NCBI GenBank assembly: GCA_002084425.1
Contig: NBLN01000002.1
Coordinates: forward strand, 1-64,000
From: Desulfobacteraceae bacterium 4572_130
Lineage (GTDB): Bacteria > Desulfobacterota > Desulfobacteria > Desulfobacterales > Desulfobacteraceae
Direction: 5' to 3'
Length of the DNA: 64,000 nt
Positions 4,548-49,689 of this stretch are shown piece after piece (the stretch's first letter is position 1; each line of letters starts with the position of its first letter). Below the pieces are notes generated by a model. The model made no database searches, was not told the origin of the DNA, and worked only from the letters and a program-made list of their open reading frames with translations. The position numbers and the translations under genes are program-made.

Positions 4548-7544
4548 ATGAATAATCAAGATATAAATTCAAATATAAAAAAACAAAGTATGGTTCTAGG
4601 ATACAAAGTAATTCACATTGAAAAACTTAAAGAACTTAAATCTGTTTTATACCAGCTGGAACATAAAAAAACAGGGGCAAAACATATTCATATCAGTAAT
4701 AAAGACAAGGAAAATACCTTTGGAGTTATATTTAAAACTATTCCTTATGATTCAACAGGAATTGCCCATATTCTTGAGCATACAGTTCTTTGCGGGTCAA
4801 AAAAATTTAATGTACGGGATCCTTTTTTTTCCATGTTAAAAAGAGGGCTTTCCACATTTATGAATGCTCTTACAGCTCCAGATTGGACAATGTATCCTTT
4901 TTCCACACAAAATAAAAAAGATTTTTATAATCTTATGGATGTATATCTTGATGCAGTTTTTTTTCCAAACCTTGATATTTTAAGTTTTAAACAAGAAGGA
5001 TATCGTATTGAAACAATTAATGGACAAAATCAAAATAATGAAAATTTAGAACTTATATATAAAGGTGTAGTTTATAATGAAATGAAGGGAGCTATGTCAT
5101 CACCTTCCCAGATAATGGAACACTTTCTTCTTAGTGGTCTTTTTCCAGATACAACTTATAGTTTTAATTCAGGAGGAGACCCTTTTATAATACCAAGTCT
5201 TAAGCATGATGATTTAAAACAATTTCATTTAAAGTATTATCATCCTTGTAATTCTTTTTTTTATACATATGGCTCCCTGCCTTTAAAGGATCATCTTGAA
5301 TTTATAGAAAAAAAAGTTTTGCATAAATTTACAAGAAAAAACCCCAGCTCATTTATTGCATCCCAGAAAAAGTGGAAAAAACCAAAGCAGATAATGTGCA
5401 ATTATCCCCTTAGTAAAGATAAAAATCCTGAAAAAAAACATCAAGTATGTGTTGCATGGATGACAGCTGATATAAAAGATTCTTTTGAAATACTTGTATT
5501 AAATGTACTTGCACAAATTCTTCTGGGAAATGCAGCTTCTCCTTTAAGAAAAGCACTTATAGATTCTGAACTTGGAACAGCATTAAGTGATTGTTCAGGG
5601 TTTGATGCAGATATAAAAAATAGCATTTTTGCCTGTGGGCTCAGGGATATATTCCTAGGTGCAGTAAAAAAAGTAGAAAAAATTATTTTTCAAACACTTC
5701 AAAATGTTGTTAAAAATGGCATAAAAGAAAAATTAATTAAATCTGCAATTCATCAAATTGAATTTCACCAAAAAGAAATAACAAATACTCCTCATCCCTT
5801 TGGCATTAAACTTTTGCTTTCCCTTGCAGGAACATGGATACATAATGGAGAGCCTTTGGCCTGTTTAAAGTTTAATAAAAATTTAGATAGATTAAAAAAA
5901 GAAATTCAAAAAAAAGGCTTTCTGGAAAATAAAATTAAAAAATATTTTCTGGAAAATCCTCATAGAGTTTTACTTGTTATGTGTCCCAGTCAAGATATGG
6001 AAGAAAAGCAGGATAAAAAAACAAAACATGAACTTCTAGAAATTTTAAAGAAAATGCAGCCGCATGAAATTAAACAAATCAAACAAGATGCAGATAAACT
6101 TATGTTTCTTCAAGAGGAAAAAGAAGATGTTTCATCCCTTCCATGTCTTAAACTTTCTGATGTACCTATAGAAATTGAAATAATTAAACCAGATATTATT
6201 AAAGAAAATTCACAGGCAACATTTTATAATAAAACAACTTCAGATATTTTATATTTTTCATGTCCCTTTAATCTTCTATATATTTCAAAACAAAAACTTT
6301 TTCTTATTCCTTTTTTTTGTAAAGCTTTTACAAATGCAGGAACTTTAAAAAGAGATTATGCAAAAATGGCTGAACTTATGGATCTTTATACAGGCGGTAT
6401 AGCAATTTCGCCATTTACAGGAACAGATTTCTCCAAAAACAAAAAAAATAAATTTTTTCTTAGCCTTCAAGGAAAGGCTTTAGATAGAAATATTGAAAAT
6501 CTTTTTAATTTAATTAATGAATTTATAACTCAATATAGTTTTTCAGATATTACAAGACTTAAAAAATTACTTTTTCAATATCAAGCTGCAATGGAAGCAT
6601 CAATAGTTTCCAATGGTCATAGATATGCAATCTTACTTGCTTCTCGAAATTTTACAAAAACATCATTTTTATCAGAAATGTGGCATGGGATTTCCCAGTA
6701 TAAATTTATTAAAAAACTTACAAAGAAAATTAATAAATCAGATTCAAAAAATGATATTCTTAATATCCTTTCTAAAGACCTCCATGAAATTGCTGATTTT
6801 TTATTTTACCGAAAAAATCTCAATCCTGTTATTGTGGGAGGAAAAAATTCTCTTATAAAAGCTGATAAAAGAATTTTATCTATATTAAATAATCTTCCTG
6901 AAAAGAAACATGATGCAGCTAAGAAATTAAATATAAATACAAAAATTCCTTATGAAGGATGGTTTACAAGTACATCAGTTTCCTTTGTTGCTCAGGCATT
7001 TAAAACCGTGAGATTTGGTCATAAAGATGCTCCAGCTATGGCTGTAATCAGCAAAATGCTGAGATCTTTATATCTTCACAGGGAAATAAGGGAAAAGGGC
7101 GGAGCCTATGGCGGGTTTGCAATGTACAGTCCTGAAGAAGGAATTTTTTCTTTTGGTTCCTATAGAGATCCTTATATTGGAAGGACTTTGGAAGTATATG
7201 AGAATTCCTGTGATTTTATTATAAAGGGAGATTATTCAGAAAATGATGTAAAAGAGGCAATTCTTCAGGTATGTGCTGAAATTGATAAACCAGAAACTCC
7301 AGGTCCTGCTGCAATAAAGGCTTTTTATAGAGATGTTTTGAATTTAACTGATGAAAAACGCAAAAATTTTAAATTTTCCTTACTAGAACTTAATAAAAAA
7401 ACAATTCAAAAAATAGCTGAAAAATATTTTAATCTGGAAAATTCAGAAAAAGGTACTGCAATAATATCAAGTAAAGATAAATTAGAGCAGGAAAATATGA
7501 ATCTTGAATCTCATAAAAAGCCTTTTGAGTTGTTTGAAATTTAA
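4548..7544 (+). CDS. M16C metallopeptidase, presequence protease (PreP) type
   Basis: A 998-aa zinc peptidase of the PreP/Cym1 subfamily, which degrades unstructured peptides in a closed chamber. The inverted zinc motif HILEH (about residues 77-81) is followed by the subfamily-typical LCGSKKF...RDPFFSMLKR and LTAPDWTMYPF. The distal Glu is probably in VVYNEMKGA (about 177-183). The C-terminal half includes a second M16-like domain with REKGGAYGG near 846. Length matches PreP (about 970-1000). There is no signal peptide, so it is probably cytoplasmic. AAGGAG lies about 15 nt before the ATG, and no better in-frame start is seen. It stands alone between a TPR pseudogene and palindromic repeats. 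Confidence 0.9.
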   Translation: MNNQDINSNIKKQSMVLGYKVIHIEKLKELKSVLYQLEHKKTGAKHIHISNKDKENTFGVIFKTIPYDSTGIAHILEHTVLCGSKKFNVRDPFFSMLKRGLSTFMNALTAPDWTMYPFSTQNKKDFYNLMDVYLDAVFFPNLDILSFKQEGYRIETINGQNQNNENLELIYKGVVYNEMKGAMSSPSQIMEHFLLSGLFPDTTYSFNSGGDPFIIPSLKHDDLKQFHLKYYHPCNSFFYTYGSLPLKDHLEFIEKKVLHKFTRKNPSSFIASQKKWKKPKQIMCNYPLSKDKNPEKKHQVCVAWMTADIKDSFEILVLNVLAQILLGNAASPLRKALIDSELGTALSDCSGFDADIKNSIFACGLRDIFLGAVKKVEKIIFQTLQNVVKNGIKEKLIKSAIHQIEFHQKEITNTPHPFGIKLLLSLAGTWIHNGEPLACLKFNKNLDRLKKEIQKKGFLENKIKKYFLENPHRVLLVMCPSQDMEEKQDKKTKHELLEILKKMQPHEIKQIKQDADKLMFLQEEKEDVSSLPCLKLSDVPIEIEIIKPDIIKENSQATFYNKTTSDILYFSCPFNLLYISKQKLFLIPFFCKAFTNAGTLKRDYAKMAELMDLYTGGIAISPFTGTDFSKNKKNKFFLSLQGKALDRNIENLFNLINEFITQYSFSDITRLKKLLFQYQAAMEASIVSNGHRYAILLASRNFTKTSFLSEMWHGISQYKFIKKLTKKINKSDSKNDILNILSKDLHEIADFLFYRKNLNPVIVGGKNSLIKADKRILSILNNLPEKKHDAAKKLNINTKIPYEGWFTSTSVSFVAQAFKTVRFGHKDAPAMAVISKMLRSLYLHREIREKGGAYGGFAMYSPEEGIFSFGSYRDPYIGRTLEVYENSCDFIIKGDYSENDVKEAILQVCAEIDKPETPGPAAIKAFYRDVLNLTDEKRKNFKFSLLELNKKTIQKIAEKYFNLENSEKGTAIISSKDKLEQENMNLESHKKPFELFEI

Positions 7545-7765: not shown

Positions 7766-8965
7766 TTAAATAGTTATTTTTTTTGATTTTAAAACATATG
7801 CCAGAATAATACCTACTCCAAATCCAATGGCAAGATTTAATGTTAAGGTGATTCCCAGCATTATTAAACTTACAAATAGGTCCCTTTGTTCTTTAATATC
7901 AATTATACTAAGACTAAGCTGGGTACCAGCAAAAATTAAAAGTATTCCCAGTACAGAAAATGGGATAAGGTTCACAATAGCAAGGCTATGAATTCCTAAG
8001 AAAATAGCAAGTGCAATAAAAATAATTCCAATCATAAGGTTAGAACCAGCAGTACGAGCACCAAACCTGTAATGAGCTGCTAATCCTCCTGCACCATGGC
8101 ATAAAGGCATGCCACCCACAAAAAAGCATAAAAAATTAGCTAGAGCCATAGTAAAACACAATGCTTTATAAGTTACTTTTTGGGAAGCTTTACCAAAATA
8201 TTGTTGGGATAAATCAGCATTAGCAATAACAGCATTGCCTATTGTCATAGGTAATTGGGGAAGAACAAGAGCTAACAGAGCAAAGGAAAAATCTCCTTTA
8301 GTTGGAAAACCAAATGGTAATAATTGAGGTAGATAAATACCAAGTTTAATTTTGTCAAATCCATCATGGTTGCCCCAGATTAAGCCTAATGTAAGACCAA
8401 ATAAAATAATTAAGAGACCACCAGGAAATTTTTTATTATCCAGGAACAAAAGAGTGATTATAGTGCAAATTATGCCAATAATAATACCTATTGGGATTGT
8501 CTTAAAACTCTGAATGTATAGATAAGGTTCAACCATGCCTTGCATAAGCTGATATTTTGAGGTCCCCACCACAAATTTAATACCTTGGACAATTAATAAA
8601 GTTCCAGTTGCTAATTGAACTCCTCTAACTACTGATTGTGGTATGTATCTGTCCAAAAATGTAATAGCACCAGTTCCTCCAATAATCAAAAGAAATATAC
8701 CCACTAGAAGTCCTGAAGCTGTGATTTGAGAGGCGTTTAAGCTCATGGCAACAGCATAGGCACCAATAACTTTCATGGGTTGGACTGAAACTGTTATTCC
8801 ATAATACATGCCGGAAACAATATAAAATAATCCCAAAGAGAGAAAAACACCACAAGGGCTTAATCCATTGATCATAATCATTCCCAAAGATAAAGGAAGA
8901 AGTGTACCAAGATCACCAAATGCCCCGGCAAGTTCCCTGGGATTAAATTTATAATAAGGTCTCAA
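7766..8965 (-). CDS. MOT1-family molybdate/sulfate transporter
   Basis: A 399-aa inner-membrane protein with about ten hydrophobic segments. Near the N-terminus it carries the MOT1 signature ELAGAFGDLGTLLPL, and in the second half GGMPLCHGAGGLAAHYRFGAR. These two motifs define the MFS_MOT1/putative sulfate transporter family, which imports molybdate and possibly tungstate or sulfate. In an anaerobe this would feed molybdenum or tungsten cofactor enzymes, which is inference. There is no STAS domain, unlike SulP proteins. It lies 115 bp downstream of the GT2 gene on the same strand and is probably an independent unit. Confidence 0.85.
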   Translation of the reverse strand: MRPYYKFNPRELAGAFGDLGTLLPLSLGMIMINGLSPCGVFLSLGLFYIVSGMYYGITVSVQPMKVIGAYAVAMSLNASQITASGLLVGIFLLIIGGTGAITFLDRYIPQSVVRGVQLATGTLLIVQGIKFVVGTSKYQLMQGMVEPYLYIQSFKTIPIGIIIGIICTIITLLFLDNKKFPGGLLIILFGLTLGLIWGNHDGFDKIKLGIYLPQLLPFGFPTKGDFSFALLALVLPQLPMTIGNAVIANADLSQQYFGKASQKVTYKALCFTMALANFLCFFVGGMPLCHGAGGLAAHYRFGARTAGSNLMIGIIFIALAIFLGIHSLAIVNLIPFSVLGILLIFAGTQLSLSIIDIKEQRDLFVSLIMLGITLTLNLAIGFGVGIILAYVLKSKKITI

Positions 8966-9080: not shown

Positions 9081-10511
9081 TCAATTTTTATTAACAATAT
9101 GAAATTTAACAATTGGATTAAAAATCTGTTTGTATAATGCATAAATTACTGATGATGATTCAACTAACATTGGCAATTGAAAAAGGAAAAGCACATAAGT
9201 CATAAAAACAATATAAGCTTTTTTTCTAAATGGTGCATTTAAGTGATAAACATTTCGATATGCACCAACAACATAAAGGGACCCTATTAAACCAACCAAT
9301 ATAGCTGTTAAAATAGTTGCCCAAAAAGGAAAAAATCTTATATCATAAATCAGTTTCATAACAATGCAGTCAAATAAAAACAAAGGAGCTCCAAACCAGG
9401 CAAATGTCCATGCAAATACATATATCATTAAAATAAACCTGTTAGCTAATTTTAATTTGCTGTCTGTTGCTACACGAATTAATCCTGTGTACCATCTGGC
9501 TCTTTGTCTGATAATATCCATAACTGTAAAAGGAGACTGTTCTTTTATAAAGCCATTTACCCAGTCAAATTTAACTTTTTTTTCTGCGGCAAGAAGAGCA
9601 AAATATGCATCTTCTGTTAAACAACTTTTACCTCCAGAATCCCAGCCTATTTCTTGTTCGATTTTTGCAGGAAGCAGTACAAAGCTTCCATGCATTCCAA
9701 TTAAAGGTTTATTAAATATTTTATATTGCAATCTAAATCTTCCAAGGTCATCACCTGTTCTTAGAGCATCAATAGCAGTTATAAAAATATTTTTTCCATA
9801 ATTATAGGCATTATAAAGAATTTCACCCTGTCCCAAGGCTCCCTTGGTATTATTCATATTATATTTTAAAATAAAATTTCTAATACCCATAATTAACTGG
9901 GATGTAATTATGCTTTCTTCATCAAGGTGTAATACCCATACATCATTAATATGTAATTTAGAATTTTCCTTAAATCTTTGTGTCCGCATTTCCAAAAGAT
10001 ATTGCAATGCTCTTGCTTTGTACTTAACCTTGGTTTTTGTCTCATAATTATCTGGAATTATATAATAATAAATTTTTCCATTTGTTTCAGAAATTCGATT
10101 TTTTCTGATTACTTCTTGGTCTGTTACTATTTCAATAGCATATTTAACTTCAGCACTATCTAGTTCCTGTTGTGTTGCTGCTATTGCTCTTTTTAATGCA
10201 ATTTGATTATCTCCCCTGCTTACATAGGAAATAATCAGTAAAGAACCTGTTGGATCCCAAGTCCAACCAGCAAAATCTTGTATATTTTCATCTTTTGGAG
10301 CACCAAAAAGTAATCCAAAAAAATTCATAAGAACCCATAAAATTGGGATAAACCATATAAAATTCAGATAATAATAAAAATGTTCAAGAAAATTTTTTGG
10401 AATTAAAATATTTGTATCATACCATAAAAAACAATTAATATAGATGTGTATAATAACTGGAAAAATAATAGCTGTTATATAAAGAAATATTGGTTTAGCT
10501 CTACTAGTCAT
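9081..10511 (-). CDS. Egghead-like family 2 glycosyltransferase (membrane polysaccharide synthase candidate)
   Basis: A 476-aa integral-membrane GT2. Predicted membrane segments lie at about 7-27, 47-69, 358-381, 395-417 and 431-452, with the catalytic domain between. The metal/donor motif is HLDEES (195-200), the acceptor-base motif LTED (298-301), and the Q(x2)RW motif QRARW (336-340). Flanking text such as GDDLGRFRLQYK, NKPLIGMHGSFV and EQSPFTVMDIIRQRARW matches my recollection of the metazoan beta-1,4-mannosyltransferase Egghead/BRE-3. D/TED/QxxRW is the pattern of processive synthases. It is the last gene of an operon, 19 bp after the propeller-porin gene. A role in making a secreted glycan is inferred; the sugar is unknown, although mannose is suggested by the Egghead resemblance. 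Confidence 0.85.
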   Translation of the reverse strand: MTSRAKPIFLYITAIIFPVIIHIYINCFLWYDTNILIPKNFLEHFYYYLNFIWFIPILWVLMNFFGLLFGAPKDENIQDFAGWTWDPTGSLLIISYVSRGDNQIALKRAIAATQQELDSAEVKYAIEIVTDQEVIRKNRISETNGKIYYYIIPDNYETKTKVKYKARALQYLLEMRTQRFKENSKLHINDVWVLHLDEESIITSQLIMGIRNFILKYNMNNTKGALGQGEILYNAYNYGKNIFITAIDALRTGDDLGRFRLQYKIFNKPLIGMHGSFVLLPAKIEQEIGWDSGGKSCLTEDAYFALLAAEKKVKFDWVNGFIKEQSPFTVMDIIRQRARWYTGLIRVATDSKLKLANRFILMIYVFAWTFAWFGAPLFLFDCIVMKLIYDIRFFPFWATILTAILVGLIGSLYVVGAYRNVYHLNAPFRKKAYIVFMTYVLFLFQLPMLVESSSVIYALYKQIFNPIVKFHIVNKN

Positions 10512-10530
10512 AATACCCCACTTATAATTA

Positions 10531-12783
10531 TTAGAATTTTAATTCAAAGCATGTTTCAAATTGCATTTTAGATTTTTTTGCTGGTTTTGATAAAGCATTA
10601 TCATATAGATTTCCGGGCCAGAAAATACCAGCAAACAAGTTAAAACTTAAGTGTTTATTAATAGAATAATCTGCTTTAAAATTTAATTCCTGTCCTTCAT
10701 CTTTAGAGATGTCTAAATTAGACAGGTGTTCTTTTCTTAGAATAGAATAAAACAAACTAAGTTTAATATTGTCCCAGGGAAAAACCAATATACCTAAATT
10801 GCCTATATGCATATTTTTTTTTATATTTCTGATTCTACCCCATTTTATATCACTATCAAGGTTATCACCTGACAAAATATCAAAATTTTCATTATCAGTT
10901 GTATCTGGATCATCACCAGATAAATATGCATATTCAAATCTAAATTCTGGTTTCAGCATTATTTTAGGATGCTTCCATATGGTTTGAACATATCCTCCCC
11001 ATGCATTTCTATTAATTTCAGCTTTATTTTCATCCACTGTGCTTCCAGTCTGCTTTGTTATTTCAGAATTAAGATTTAAATTTTTTGTAAATTTATATTC
11101 TGTTTTTATACCTATAGCTGTAGTTTTTTCCTGTATAGTGTTATTTTTTTTATGGAATATATAAGCTTCTGATATTAGAGGTTTATTTAGTATTTTCAAA
11201 TTATATCTCAAATTTAAACCATAAACATTTTTTCTAAACTCTTTAAAATTATTATCCCATGTAAAAAAATTATCTTTATCTTTATCAAAATCAAAAAAAT
11301 TATTTCCACTATGTCTTGTACCTGCAAACAAATCAACTTTTAGATCCTTATCATTAAAAAGTAAGTGTGCACCATCATAACCATTATATTCTCCCATAAG
11401 AAGTTTTCGCCCAAAGGACAGCTCTTGTCTTCCAAGAATTAATGTAAAAGGAGAGTCAAACATTCTGTAAAACTGTAGATAGCCCCTATATATTTCTATT
11501 TCTTGAATATCAAAATTCCATCTATGGTTTATTTTCCATTCAATGGCTCCTGAAATTTTTTTTGTAAATGATAATTTTAAGGAAGGTCTTAATTCTGTTT
11601 CCACATCTGACTTAAATTTTGATTCTTCAGCTACTTTTTTATCTCCCTGATTTATCCAGTGATTATCCCATATTCCCTTTATAAATAATTTTGTTCTAAA
11701 GGAAACATCAATTTTTTTTTTAGGTTTAGGATTAGTTAGCTCTAGCGTTGCAAGGCAAATAGAAGTATCAATTTTACCATTATTTCCTGGTTGTTTTATT
11801 CCACCATAATAAATATACATGATATTATTTTCTATAAATAAACAAGGGTCTTGCGCTCCAAATTTGTCATAAATAGCATTGGGTTCAAAAATTGGTTTTC
11901 CATTAAATTCCGGGTCCCAATTTTCAAGATCCTTACTTTTCCATAAATAAATCTTATTTTTATGTGTTGCATAATCAAATTTACTTCCAGCATTATACCA
12001 GGCTGAATAAACTAGATACCAAATTCCATTGTATTTAGTTACTGAACTACTGCCTCCTGAAGAAACAATACATTTTGCTGAAGAAGCATCAGAAAGACCC
12101 TGCCATGTTAATGCCTTTCTTTTCCAGGTCTGCCAGATATTTTTTATTTTTTTGCTGTAAAATAAATGATAATATTTTCCATCATGCACTAGATAAGGAT
12201 CTGCTATTGTATCTGCTTTTCCAAAAAATAACTCAGTACCTACATTAGGATATCCATCATCAGTTCTGCCTATTTTTGATCCATTTTCTAGCATACCAGT
12301 TGAACACTGATATATAATTTTTCCTTTTTTTTCCTTTGGGTCAAATATATACATGCTGGAAACCAGATGCCCTCCACCCCAGCCGCCTATCCAGCCATGT
12401 GGTGCTAAAACAGGATTATCATTATTTGATATAGTCCAAGGACCTTTAGGATGAGGAGCAGTTGCTTCCCCCAAAGACCAGATATTAGTTGTATGAGGAT
12501 ATAAATTAGGAGGACTTCCATGACCAGATAATAACATGCGATATTTATTCCCTTGTTTTATTACATGGGCATCATCTGCCACAGTTCTGCGCCAGTGTCC
12601 TGGCTGATAATGTATTTCCGTTAATGGCGGGGATAAACCCAAACGATTGGATAATACGATTCCTTTTTTTTTTACGGAATCATATTTGATTTTAAGTTCA
12701 TTTGTTGTGTTTTGTGCAGATATGTTTTGTACTGAGGAAAAACTAATTATAAATAAGATTAAAACAATAAATCTATATTTCAT
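10531..12783 (-). CDS. Secreted five-bladed beta-propeller fused to an alginate-export-like outer-membrane barrel
   Basis: A 750-aa exported protein. Residues 1-23 form a signal peptide ending SAQ. Residues about 45-350 form a GH43/GH130-like beta-propeller, with repeated blade phrases: DDAHVIKQGNKYRMLLSG, GEATAPHPKGPWT, ADPYLVHDGKYYHLFYSK and FGAQDPCLFIENNIMYIYYGG. Acidic residues are in positions expected for such folds, but I cannot assign the catalytic triad. After a PKPKKK linker at about 350, the remaining 390 residues are alternating amphipathic strands ending in Phe, as in outer-membrane barrels. Phrases such as LILGRQELSFGRKLLMG and WDGAHL-like YNGYDGAHL recall alginate-export (AlgE-like) porins. 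It sits between a barrel-less paralogue and a GT2 synthase, which suggests glycan binding or trimming coupled to export. Confidence 0.75.
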   Translation of the reverse strand: MKYRFIVLILFIISFSSVQNISAQNTTNELKIKYDSVKKKGIVLSNRLGLSPPLTEIHYQPGHWRRTVADDAHVIKQGNKYRMLLSGHGSPPNLYPHTTNIWSLGEATAPHPKGPWTISNNDNPVLAPHGWIGGWGGGHLVSSMYIFDPKEKKGKIIYQCSTGMLENGSKIGRTDDGYPNVGTELFFGKADTIADPYLVHDGKYYHLFYSKKIKNIWQTWKRKALTWQGLSDASSAKCIVSSGGSSSVTKYNGIWYLVYSAWYNAGSKFDYATHKNKIYLWKSKDLENWDPEFNGKPIFEPNAIYDKFGAQDPCLFIENNIMYIYYGGIKQPGNNGKIDTSICLATLELTNPKPKKKIDVSFRTKLFIKGIWDNHWINQGDKKVAEESKFKSDVETELRPSLKLSFTKKISGAIEWKINHRWNFDIQEIEIYRGYLQFYRMFDSPFTLILGRQELSFGRKLLMGEYNGYDGAHLLFNDKDLKVDLFAGTRHSGNNFFDFDKDKDNFFTWDNNFKEFRKNVYGLNLRYNLKILNKPLISEAYIFHKKNNTIQEKTTAIGIKTEYKFTKNLNLNSEITKQTGSTVDENKAEINRNAWGGYVQTIWKHPKIMLKPEFRFEYAYLSGDDPDTTDNENFDILSGDNLDSDIKWGRIRNIKKNMHIGNLGILVFPWDNIKLSLFYSILRKEHLSNLDISKDEGQELNFKADYSINKHLSFNLFAGIFWPGNLYDNALSKPAKKSKMQFETCFELKF

Positions 12784-12870: not shown

Positions 12871-13929
12871 TTACTTATTAGTTAACTTAAAAGTTACCAG
12901 CCCAATGGAAGTATTAGTTTCTCCATTATTTTTTGGATCTTGTATTACACTATAATAAATATACATCACATTATTTTCTATAAACAAACAAGGATCTTGT
13001 GCTCCAAATTTATCATAATCATCATAAGATTCAAAAATTGGTTTTCCATTAAATTCTGGAGTCCAATTTTCAAGATCCTTACTTTTCAATAAATAAAGTT
13101 TGTTTTTGTGTTTTTTATAATCAAATTCATTTTCATCATCATACCAGGCTGAATAAACTAGATACCAAACTCCATTATATTTAGTTACTGAACTGCTGCC
13201 TCCTAAAGGAACAATACATTTTGCAGAAAAATCATTAGCTAATCCCTTCCATTTTGATGACTTTCTTTTCCAAGTCTGCCAATTATTTTTTACTTTTTTA
13301 CTATAAAATAAATGATAATATTTTCCATCATGAACCAGATAGGGATCTGCTATTGTATTTGCTTTTCCAAAAAATAACTCAGTGCCTATATTAGGATATC
13401 CATCATCAGTTCTGCCTATTTTTGCACCATTTTCTGGCTCACCAGTTGAACACTGATATATAATCTTTCCTTTTTTTTCCTTTGGATCAAATATATACAT
13501 ACTGGAAACTAAATGCCCGCCACCCCACCCGCCTTTCCATCCAGGGGATACCAAAAGAGGATTATCATTATTTGATATAGTCCAAGGACCTTTAGGGTGA
13601 GGAGCAGTTGCTTCACCCAAAGACCAGATATTATCTGTATCAGGATATAAATCAAAAGTACTTCCATAACCAGATAATAGCATGCGGTATTTATTTCCTT
13701 GTTTTATTACATGAGGATCATCTACCACAGTTCTGCGCCAGTGTCCGGGCTGATAGTTTAGCTCTTTTGAGGGCAAAGGCAGATCTAAACGATTAGATAA
13801 TATTATTCCTTTTTTTTCCAAAGAATCATATTTGATTTTAAGGTCCTTATTTTTGTTTTGTATAAATATATTTTTCATTGCAAAAAAACCAACTATTAAT
13901 ATTATTAAAATAATAAATTTATACTTCAT
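12871..13929 (-). CDS. Beta-propeller (GH43/GH130-like) protein, barrel-less tandem paralogue
   Basis: A 352-aa protein highly similar along its whole length to residues 1-350 of the next gene, with the same blade phrases (PGHWRRTVVDDPHVIKQ, GEATAPHPKGPWT, DPYLVHDGKYYHLFYSK, FGAQDPCLFIEN). It stops at LTNK exactly where the paralogue enters its linker and outer-membrane barrel. The N-terminus (residues 1-22) is hydrophobic but lacks a clear cleavage site, so it could be a signal anchor; periplasmic location is inferred. AGGA precedes the ATG. It is the first gene of the operon, 87 bp before the fusion. Function could be glycan hydrolysis, phosphorolysis or just binding. Confidence 0.75.
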   Translation of the reverse strand: MKYKFIILIILIVGFFAMKNIFIQNKNKDLKIKYDSLEKKGIILSNRLDLPLPSKELNYQPGHWRRTVVDDPHVIKQGNKYRMLLSGYGSTFDLYPDTDNIWSLGEATAPHPKGPWTISNNDNPLLVSPGWKGGWGGGHLVSSMYIFDPKEKKGKIIYQCSTGEPENGAKIGRTDDGYPNIGTELFFGKANTIADPYLVHDGKYYHLFYSKKVKNNWQTWKRKSSKWKGLANDFSAKCIVPLGGSSSVTKYNGVWYLVYSAWYDDENEFDYKKHKNKLYLLKSKDLENWTPEFNGKPIFESYDDYDKFGAQDPCLFIENNVMYIYYSVIQDPKNNGETNTSIGLVTFKLTNK

Positions 13930-46428: not shown

Positions 46429-46615
46429 TATGCTAATAACAGATGTGTATTAAATAGCTTTTTAAACCAATTAAACACAGAAAAATGCTTTTAAGAATTA
46501 TGATTATAGGCCTTTTGTAAAGGTCAATTGATTTGATAATGAAATTTATATAAAAAAATCAATTGATTTTTCGCATTCTTTGGAGAACTTAAAAGGTGAT
46601 TTTCCTTTTAAAGCT

Positions 46616-46670
46616 TGATGAGATCTTTTAAGGTAAATCAAGAGCTAAAAATCAGATCTGCGTTATGGCA
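46616..46670 (-). repeat. Dispersed 95-bp intergenic repeat, copy H (truncated)
   Basis: Minus-oriented; only the part from AAGGTAAATCAAGAG to TCTGCGTTATGGCA remains. It lies in the 46429-46776 spacer, which otherwise holds an AT-rich stretch with TCAATTGATT repeats but no gene. Confidence 0.6.
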
Positions 46671-46776
46671 TTTGATTTTAAGATTTATTTTCAATTATTT
46701 ATTGCCTGCAATATTAGTAACTATTTATAAATTCATCACTATTCTGCGAATAATTTTCTGGGACATTATTATAATC

Positions 46777-49689
46777 ATGTTAAAAAAAAATATTTATTTA
46801 TTAATTCTTTTTTGTGTATTTTTAGGATTTTCCTGTACACTTCATAATTTAAATAAAAATAATTTTTCAAGTTTTAGTAAAGTTGAGTTTAATGAGCTTA
46901 AAAAAGATAATTCTAATGGGTTTAGTTTTGACAAGGCTCTTATTCATGGAACTCTTTTAAATGGTTTTAGATATATTCTTCTTAAAAATTCAACTCCAGA
47001 AAATAGAATAAGTATGCATTTAAATGTTTGTGCAGGTTCAATGCATGAAGCTGATAATCAACAAGGTATAGCACATTTTCTAGAGCATATGCTTTTTAAT
47101 GGTTCAACTCATTTTAAGCCTGGAGAGCTTGTTAAATATTTTCAATCCATTGGTATGAGCTTTGGGTCCGATGCAAATGCACATACTTCTTTTTTTGAAA
47201 CTGTATATGATATATTTCTTCCTCTTAATAATGAAAATAGCGATAATAATTATAAAAAAATTGAAAAAGCTTTTCTTGTATTAAGTGATTTTGCAGGTGG
47301 TGGGCTGCTCCTTTCTTCTGAAATAAATAAAGAAAGAAATATTGTACTTTGTGAAAAACAAGACAGAGATTCTGTTTCTTATCAGACATTTAAAAAAGCA
47401 TTAAATTTTGAAATTCCAGATTCAAGAATAAATCAACGATTTCCTATTGGTATTGAAAAAATCATAAAAACTGCTGATAGAGCTTTGTTAAAGAATTATT
47501 ATGATACCTGGTACACACCTGATAACATGATTCTAGTTATGGTTGGTGATTTTAATGTTGATATTGCAAAAAAACTTATAAAAAAAAGTTTTTCCAGTAT
47601 GAAAACCAGAGCAGATAAAAAACAAATCATTAAGAAAAAGGCAATTTTAAAACAAATTATTCAAGATAAATGGAAACCTCATTCCGCAATTAAAGCGTTT
47701 TATCATTATGAACCTGAGGCAGGAAATACAGATGTTTCCATTGGAACAGTTACAAAGCTGGAATTTAAAGAAGATACTTTAGAAGATTTAAAAAAACGGG
47801 TTTTAGGAAATATTGCTGATACAATTTTGCAAAATCGTCTTTCAAAAATTGTAAGACAGAAAAATTCTCCATTTTCTAAGGCTGGTGTGTTTTCAGGTAC
47901 ATATCTTAGAAATATTTTTTTTTCCTCCATAAGTGCTGAATCTGATCCTGATAAATGGGAAAATACCCTTGAAATTTTAAATAAAAATCTTTGTACTGCG
48001 TTAAAATTTGGATTTACAGACCAGGAGTTAAAAAGAGTAAAAGCTGATTTTATTTTAAAGCTTGAATCTAATGTAAAAAAAGCAGGTACAAGGGAAAGTA
48101 CCATGCTTGCAAAGAGTATAATAAAAAAGATTAATAATAAAAAAGTTTTTATGTCTCCAAAACAGAGACAAAATATATTAAAACCGTTTATTGAACACCT
48201 TGCAATAGATGATGTAAACAAGGCTTTTTTTCAAACATGGTCTGCAAAACACAGACTTATTGAGGTAACTGGAAATGCTTTAATCTCCTCTGGAAATAAA
48301 ACTCCTCAAAATATTATTCTTAAAACATATGAAAAAAGTAAAAAACAAAAACTTGTAAAATATAAACAAAAAAATATAGCATTTTTCCCCTATCTTACAC
48401 CCAGTAAAAAAATAGAAACTATAAAACACCAAAAACATATAAAAAACCTTGATGTTTTTACAATTGATTTTAAAAATAATATAAGACTGAATTTAAAAAA
48501 AACAGATTTTAAAAAAAAAGAAATAATATTTAGACTGGATTTTGGTAAAGGTAGAAAAGCTGAACCTGTTTCCATGCCTGGTATTTCCCTGATAGCTCAG
48601 GAAGTAATTAATGAAAGTGGTCTTGGTTTACTTGATAAAGATCAGCTTAAAGAAGTTCTAGCAGGAAAAGATATTAATATTTATTTTAAGGCAGACAAGG
48701 GAACTTTTACTTTTTCAGGTTCTTGTGGGTCTAATGAAATACAAACTTTATTTAAGCTTTTACATGCATATTTAATGGATCCAGGATTTAGGCAGGAGAT
48801 ATTTGATCTTTCCCTTGAGCGATATAAACAAATGTACCATCAAATGTTAAGAACTCATCAAGGTATGATGAAAATCAAGGGAGAAAAATTTCTGGCAGAA
48901 AATGATACTCGTTTTGGAATGCCTGATTTTAATAAAATAAATAAATTAACCCTTGATAATATAAAATTATGGATAAAGCCTTTTTTTGAAAATAAGGAAA
49001 TTGAAATCTCTATTGTTGGAGATTTTGATACTCAAAAAATAATTAATAATGCATCAAAATATATTGGAACCCTTGAAAAAAGAAAAAGTCAAAATATTAT
49101 TACAAGAAAACAACCTAATTTTCCTAGAGATAGAAACCTTTTATTAAATGTTGATACAAAAATAGATAAAACCATTGTAAAAATAGCATTTAAAACACAT
49201 GATTTTTGGGATATTCAAAAAAATAGAAGATTAAATATTCTTGCAGCAATTATTAGTGAAAGACTTAGAAAAAAAATTCGTGAAAATCTTGGAGCTTCAT
49301 ATTCTAGCTATGCTTATAATAATTCTTCCATGGAATATAAAGATTATGGAGTTTTACATATAGTTGCAAATGTTGATTCTAAAATGACAAGCATTGTAAT
49401 AAAAGAAATAAAGATAATTATTAATGATCTTTTTAAAAATGGTGTAAAACAACAAGAACTTAATTTAGCTTTACAACCTGTTTTAACACATATTAAGGAT
49501 CTTAAAAAAAATAATGAATATTGGCTTAATTCAGTACTTTTTGATTCAAAAAATCATCCTGAAAAATTTAATTGGGCAGAAAATATTTTTCAGGACTATA
49601 AATCAATCACAAAGCAGGAAGTATCTTTTCTAGCAAAAAAATATCTTAAAATTGAAAATAGTGCTTTAATTATTATTAAAACATTATGA
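46777..49689 (+). CDS. M16 zinc peptidase, insulinase/pitrilysin type, exported
   Basis: The protein has about 970 residues from the ATG at 46777, whose N-terminus (MLKKNIYLLILFCVFLGFSC) is a signal with a likely lipoprotein Cys. A longer frame opening at 46615 is rejected because its first 54 codons read through repeat copy H. The zinc motif is HFLEH in GIAHFLEHMLFNGSTHFKPGEL, with NAHTSFFETVYDIF and a distal Glu in INKERNIVLCEKQDRD. Two M16 domain pairs are visible, the second with KKIRENLGASYSSYAYNN. It probably degrades peptides in the periplasm. It is distinct from the PreP-like enzyme at 4548-7544. Confidence 0.88.
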   Translation: MLKKNIYLLILFCVFLGFSCTLHNLNKNNFSSFSKVEFNELKKDNSNGFSFDKALIHGTLLNGFRYILLKNSTPENRISMHLNVCAGSMHEADNQQGIAHFLEHMLFNGSTHFKPGELVKYFQSIGMSFGSDANAHTSFFETVYDIFLPLNNENSDNNYKKIEKAFLVLSDFAGGGLLLSSEINKERNIVLCEKQDRDSVSYQTFKKALNFEIPDSRINQRFPIGIEKIIKTADRALLKNYYDTWYTPDNMILVMVGDFNVDIAKKLIKKSFSSMKTRADKKQIIKKKAILKQIIQDKWKPHSAIKAFYHYEPEAGNTDVSIGTVTKLEFKEDTLEDLKKRVLGNIADTILQNRLSKIVRQKNSPFSKAGVFSGTYLRNIFFSSISAESDPDKWENTLEILNKNLCTALKFGFTDQELKRVKADFILKLESNVKKAGTRESTMLAKSIIKKINNKKVFMSPKQRQNILKPFIEHLAIDDVNKAFFQTWSAKHRLIEVTGNALISSGNKTPQNIILKTYEKSKKQKLVKYKQKNIAFFPYLTPSKKIETIKHQKHIKNLDVFTIDFKNNIRLNLKKTDFKKKEIIFRLDFGKGRKAEPVSMPGISLIAQEVINESGLGLLDKDQLKEVLAGKDINIYFKADKGTFTFSGSCGSNEIQTLFKLLHAYLMDPGFRQEIFDLSLERYKQMYHQMLRTHQGMMKIKGEKFLAENDTRFGMPDFNKINKLTLDNIKLWIKPFFENKEIEISIVGDFDTQKIINNASKYIGTLEKRKSQNIITRKQPNFPRDRNLLLNVDTKIDKTIVKIAFKTHDFWDIQKNRRLNILAAIISERLRKKIRENLGASYSSYAYNNSSMEYKDYGVLHIVANVDSKMTSIVIKEIKIIINDLFKNGVKQQELNLALQPVLTHIKDLKKNNEYWLNSVLFDSKNHPEKFNWAENIFQDYKSITKQEVSFLAKKYLKIENSALIIIKTL

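Follow-up and report, generated by a model that had tools for sequence, protein, structure and literature searches.

A GH43-like propeller joined to an Alginate_exp outer-membrane barrel, beside a polysaccharide synthase-like gene, in Desulfobacteraceae bacterium 4572_130

What might a carbohydrate-active domain be doing at the periplasmic mouth of an outer-membrane pore? The question is raised by a gene of Desulfobacteraceae bacterium 4572_130 lying in positions 1 to 64,000 of contig NBLN01000002.1 (assembly GCA_002084425.1); this 64,000-nucleotide stretch is the window referred to below. The initial annotation, made from the letters alone, had read the gene as one polypeptide in which a signal peptide, a GH43/GH130-like propeller, a PKPKKK linker and a barrel ending in Phe follow one another. 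We could confirm this order: the frame holds no internal stop in its 750 codons and the protein ends in ...FELKF (Table 1). Both halves, propeller and barrel, are real and show similarity beyond chance. What had been missed is that the barrel belongs to a known alginate-export family and that the gene is flanked by a second copy of the propeller and by a processive-type GT2 glycosyltransferase; also missed was that the best alignment with GH43 is likely a circularly permuted one, in which Asp stands for the acid Glu.

Table 1. Positions in the window of the fusion gene, its parts and the two adjacent genes
Feature	Positions	Strand	Evidence
Fusion gene, 750 aa: signal peptide, GH43-like propeller, linker and Alginate_exp barrel	10531..12783	(-)	Uninterrupted ORF; Alginate_exp E 8.7e-18
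Signal peptide region, aa 1-24	12712..12783	(-)	Hydrophobic segment aa 5-23; ISA-QN cleavage-like site by eye
GH43-like five-bladed propeller, aa 55-350	11734..12621	(-)	hhalign and rotation tests; Pfam rotation test
PKPKKK linker, aa 352-357	11713..11730	(-)	Sequence; end of the stand-alone copy falls at the corresponding site
Outer-membrane barrel, aa 358-750, C-terminal Phe	10534..11712	(-)	PF13372 above cut-off; alignment with 11 stand-alone relatives
Candidate functional residues of the fused propeller: D70, H139, D195, D312	12574-12576, 12367-12369, 12199-12201, 11848-11850	(-)	
Stand-alone propeller paralogue, 352 aa, hydrophobic N-terminus, no barrel	12871..13929	(-)	Just upstream of the fusion gene
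GT2 glycosyltransferase, 476 aa, 2+3 predicted TM segments	9081..10511	(-)	PF13632 E 2e-26

Searched separately, as had been proposed, the two halves fared differently: the barrel is clearly an Alginate_exp protein (PF13372; 64.7 bits where the cut-off is 25.2, E 8.7e-18, aa 425–733), but the propeller stayed below the cut-offs of both GH43 and GH130. The barrel is the sole PF13372 match in the assembly of its own genome. Members of this family need not be exporters, and the barrel relatives from the same class carry their own signal peptides and resemble ordinary stand-alone porins. Sequence searches of the PDB did not retrieve AlgE, whose barrel has 18 strands and a basic constriction, and the barrel alone found no match among plasmids. 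With the AlgE family (TC 1.B.13) the fusion shares a barrel scoring above the Pfam cut-off, but its 750 aa compare with 507 ± 96 aa for alginate exporters in an excerpt of a pore-family survey (PMC4827864), and no alginate partner genes were seen in the window, none for synthesis or modification being present among 34 window proteins scanned with Pfam. The same excerpt has outer-membrane pores fused to other domains only rarely. The 24 barrel matches in other genomes lie in open frames of 199–561 aa and none is fused, so the architecture is not a common one.

From aa 358 onward the barrel aligns with the mature N-terminus of its relatives; the propeller therefore precedes strand 1, at the point where the signal peptide of the relatives ends. 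The N-termini of such barrels face the periplasm, and from this topology we infer that the fused propeller lies there as well. The stand-alone paralogue is 76% identical to the fused propeller with no gaps. Over 351 codons the pair shows a dN of 0.125 and a dS of 0.393 (0.115 and 0.390 for the mature part, dN/dS 0.29), so both copies are under purifying selection. The paralogue shows no clear signal-peptidase site (NIFIQNKN, against NISAQN in the fusion), and judged by this motif it may be membrane-anchored rather than released.

Of the two families that had been suggested for the propeller, GH43 is the better and GH130 is rejected. In native order Pfam gave a weak GH130 match (E 0.011, 15.2 bits) below the cut-off of 26, and the local hhalign probability for this family was at most 46.8. 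The GH43 cut-off (PF04616, 32.2 bits) was not reached either, the propeller scoring 17.5 bits in native order and 22.2 when rotated. Local profile–profile comparison with 16 GH43 domains (hhalign) gave probabilities of 89.7% in native order and 95.4% rotated, with scores of 48.6 and, on rotation at aa 180, 61.3; the best of 50 column shuffles reached 21.3. A profile made from the two propeller sequences also matched the GH43 structure 4qqs (E 5e-4). By these comparisons the domain is GH43-like. Rows for Csm2 and tail-sheath proteins in the sequence searches were taken as chance.

AlphaFold-type prediction, which had also been proposed, gave poor models, at a pLDDT of 28 for the full-length protein and a weak 39.9 (pTM 0.46) for the propeller, for want of relatives, with only two usable sequences. 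The best Foldseek matches of the propeller model were chains of five-bladed glycosidases (TM 0.17–0.38), assigned partly by entry title to GH117, GH32 and GH43, and VIA-align placed the same model in mixed registers. These structure matches may be read as hints only.

The match with 4qqs came in two pieces of swapped order, aa 190–267 of the propeller falling on residues 12–95 and aa 70–140 on residues 195–257. For a test with the Pfam GH43 profile the domain was rotated at five points. Rotation of the fused propeller at aa 180 was the sole one to give a full-length match (E 1e-4, positions 11–265 of 288); the native order covered positions 22–84 only (E 0.0028), rotation at 238 covered 72–265, and two other rotations gave no match. 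With an HMM of the same 16 GH43 sequences, each of the four other rotations outranked the native order in both copies. The N-terminal part alone picked the same place in GH43 (aa 68–128 on columns 173–224), at a low probability of 4.9%. GH130 sequences (8 of 23 tried) were unusable as a rotation control, having no significant match with the GH43 profile. We consider it likely that the propeller is a circularly permuted GH43-like domain, since its best alignment needs the blades in the order 4-5-1-2-3 and not in the GH43 order 1-2-3-4-5. This is held as likely and not as proven because the blades repeat.

The repeats are the substance of the alternative, that the propeller is not permuted and that its better rotated alignment is a by-product of like blades. 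Other registers do score (second alignments, 40.2), but the local hhalign score rises on rotation at 180 as given above, and when the joined N-terminal part was swapped for shuffled columns all 100 replacements scored lower than 61.3, at most 55.5. In a leave-one-out control each of the 16 true GH43 sequences aligned best in its native order. Against this, none of the five rotations of the paralogue matched the GH43 profile of Pfam, and the rotated profile, while aligning 4qqs as one stretch, did so at a slightly worse E (0.0021, compared with 0.0005 in native order). The weak propeller model is likewise divided: many VIA-align rows cover it unrotated, and in 9nxj_B (rmsd 3.5) it is a C-terminal part that meets the C-terminal part of the propeller, but 3qef, 3r4z, 7vco and 1uyp (GH43, GH117 and GH32; rmsd 3.3–3.6) pair their N-terminal half with the C-terminal half of the propeller. 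We lean away from the unpermuted reading while granting it a substantial chance of being correct.

Taking the propeller as permuted, D195 would fall at the GH43 base, D312 at the modulator of pKa and D70 where the acid Glu is expected. The three columns hold D, D and E in all 16 of the GH43 sequences compared, so that of the catalytic set (Asp base, Asp modulator, Glu acid) it is the acid that differs, the Glu being aligned to D70. The motif at this site reads DDAHV in the fusion; the stand-alone copy has DDPHV. G138-H139 stands where the GH motif of blade 5 would be expected, although the hhalign alignment stops before that point; GH occurs within the last 90 residues in 11 of the 16 GH43 sequences. 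With Asp for the acid Glu, the fused propeller may hydrolyse a glycan or may only bind it. One might regard it as a non-catalytic, lectin-like domain which guides polymer to the pore in the manner of the PgaA and BcsC TPR domains, and the altered acid, with the DDAHV and DDPHV motifs at its site, favours this. A pure binder need not have kept D70, H139, D195 and D312, which are invariant in both copies despite 24% divergence. Binding without catalysis is in our judgement a serious contender that probably falls short.

The gene downstream of the fusion begins after a gap of 19 bases on the same strand. Its GT2 product carries LDEE (aa 196), a TED motif (EDAY at aa 300) and QxxRW as QRARW (aa 336), presumably the motif set of processive synthases. 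It may also resemble the eukaryotic egghead/BRE-3 mannosyltransferases, a likeness on which a literature search returned nothing useful. Matches to the GT2 protein were found in 4 of 291 genomes of the order, its own included, the other three extending over some 80–90 residues, and in two haloarchaeal plasmids at 22–24% identity. The Pfam scan of the 34 window proteins found no c-di-GMP-binding or co-polymerase subunit and no TPR domain, nor was a TPR domain present in the fusion protein or its neighbours, and no sugar-nucleotide gene was seen nearby. Flanking genes have other functions (a MOT1-type transporter, a 4HBT thioesterase, an amino-acid kinase with a PUA domain and a PreP-like peptidase). 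As predicted promoters are no commoner than chance, it is spacing and strand that suggest co-transcription of the three genes. The MOT1-type sulphate/molybdate transporter (7766–8965), which adjoins the GT2 gene, has a TTG start and a G+C slightly above its surroundings.

A fusion of this kind beside a polysaccharide synthase-like gene suggests compact machinery for handling a sugar polymer immediately ahead of its exit from the cell. We propose that the stand-alone propeller, fusion and GT2 genes form a compact synthase-dependent exopolysaccharide module, a proposal whose chances of being right and wrong we rate about equal. We infer the roles of synthase, polymer exporter and processing domain, with substrate and catalysis, as follows. 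The GT2 in the inner membrane would polymerise a β-linked glycan, possibly mannan- or glucan-like, and pass the chain to the periplasm; the stand-alone and the pore-fused propellers would bind it there and probably trim or clear it; and the Alginate_exp barrel would let it out. The fused propeller would then replace the TPR scaffold or the separate hydrolase of known systems, and a carbohydrate-active domain would sit at the periplasmic entrance of the pore, as the initial annotation had supposed. Several points speak against the module: the D70 found in place of the otherwise constant acid Glu, the lack of c-di-GMP and TPR domains among the 34 window proteins scanned and of a sugar-nucleotide gene nearby, a barrel family whose members need not export, the porin-like barrel relatives in the class, and promoter predictions no commoner than chance. 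It is a tentative and rather doubtful further step to see here a minimal module for synthesis and export of a type not described before, its pore incorporating a circularly permuted GH43-like enzyme that uses Asp as acid and processes the chain in passing, with a free periplasmic copy beside it.

The same barrel relatives, often stand-alone, signal-peptide-bearing and porin-like, lend some weight to a reading in the opposite direction, in which the barrel would be a sugar porin, the fused propeller a periplasmic glycosidase cutting oligosaccharides as they enter, and the GT2 an unrelated neighbour. GH43-type enzymes, moreover, usually degrade glycans. Yet the scanned neighbours include no gene for sugar transport or catabolism, the nearest downstream gene, 19 bases away, is synthase-like, and the acid residue is altered; we think uptake unlikely.

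The export module may be set beside systems already known. Known exporters place a TPR scaffold ahead of the barrel and employ a hydrolase or lyase as a separate protein; BcsZ and BcsC, for instance, are respectively a GH8 and a TPR-barrel protein. PgaA and BcsC likewise bear a periplasmic polymer-handling domain N-terminal to the export barrel, but it is a TPR solenoid in those proteins and a propeller here. With GH43 and also GH117, GH32 and GH130, the five-bladed glycosidases, the propeller shares profile similarity, weak fold similarity and two catalytic Asp positions, but it lies below the family cut-offs, with Asp for the acid Glu and its blades apparently permuted. According to an excerpt of one study, the periplasmic TPR domain of PgaA binds PNAG and raises the activity of the PgaB hydrolase (PMC9384988), and for the cellulose and PNAG systems the handling of polysaccharide at the outer-membrane pore is still under study (PMC11379886, PMC9384988).

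No fused relative appeared among the 24 barrel matches of other genomes, but the claim that no standard family has this domain order goes too far: BcsZC of Zymomonas is reported to join a hydrolase of the periplasm to a polysaccharide pore of the outer membrane (PMC7112194). There too a periplasmic glycoside hydrolase is joined to a polysaccharide pore in a synthase-dependent system; BcsZ hydrolase and BcsC pore are the partners there, whereas here a GH43-like propeller is joined to an Alginate_exp barrel and no TPR was found. BcsZC is thus a direct precedent in kind, and the likely permuted glycosidase-like domain would be the most unusual part of the fusion. A pore with a glycosidase-like domain of its own would represent a further means of coupling polymer processing with export, and the fusion puts the question of handling at the pore within reach of direct tests on a single polypeptide. 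If GH43 has indeed been circularly permuted in nature, this would test how far the active site tolerates rewiring.

The first VIA-align match of the propeller model was a GalNAc deacetylase (6n1a; Z 11.8, rmsd 3.1, 155 aligned), and D71-x-H73 with H139 could, read by eye, bind a metal. One could then imagine a propeller that removes acetyl groups from polysaccharide with the help of a metal, in line with the deacetylation that forms part of the PNAG and Pel systems. We find this very improbable, since the model is of low confidence (pLDDT 39.9), sialidases and GH43 enzymes come to within 2 Z units of 6n1a, and 6n1a is absent from the sequence searches up to E 10 or E 1.

Relatives of the propeller were sought in samples of genomes with a weak two-sequence model, a search of limited reach whose blanks do not prove absence. 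The class sample (291 genomes) returned the own genome only, and the phylum sample (395) the own genome and one weak match, which lies in a ferrous-iron-transport region, by product names read from sequence, and was judged chance. No match came from 20 mixed genomes, 247 Bacteroidota or 199 Planctomycetota, and 249 Pseudomonadota gave one weak match only, in a peptidase-like frame and likewise judged chance. The propeller had no tblastn match among plasmids and phages and none in scans of viral sequence. A pattern scan of genome contigs yielded 53 stretches; in these, the best that tblastn against 86 loci could offer was E 0.054 over 20 residues, and no propeller relative emerged when their reading frames were searched with a profile. 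A surface-level literature search found neither a propeller–alginate-export fusion nor a circularly permuted GH43.

That two genes were merely joined by an error of assembly is hardly credible, for although the genome is a single draft (1.94 Mb in 24 contigs, about 80% complete) and no relative with the same fusion was found, the junction is in frame, uninterrupted and at matching domain borders of both parents, the separate second propeller copy ends at the equivalent residue, and the composition is ordinary and AT-rich throughout (G+C of 24–36% in 1-kb windows).

Elsewhere in the window an ORF of 255 aa (674–1441), between a tRNA-Leu and a tmRNA gene, matches Abi_alpha (abortive infection) weakly and below the cut-off. 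The window also holds two large M16-type peptidases (4548–7544 and 46615–49689), one of them PreP-like.
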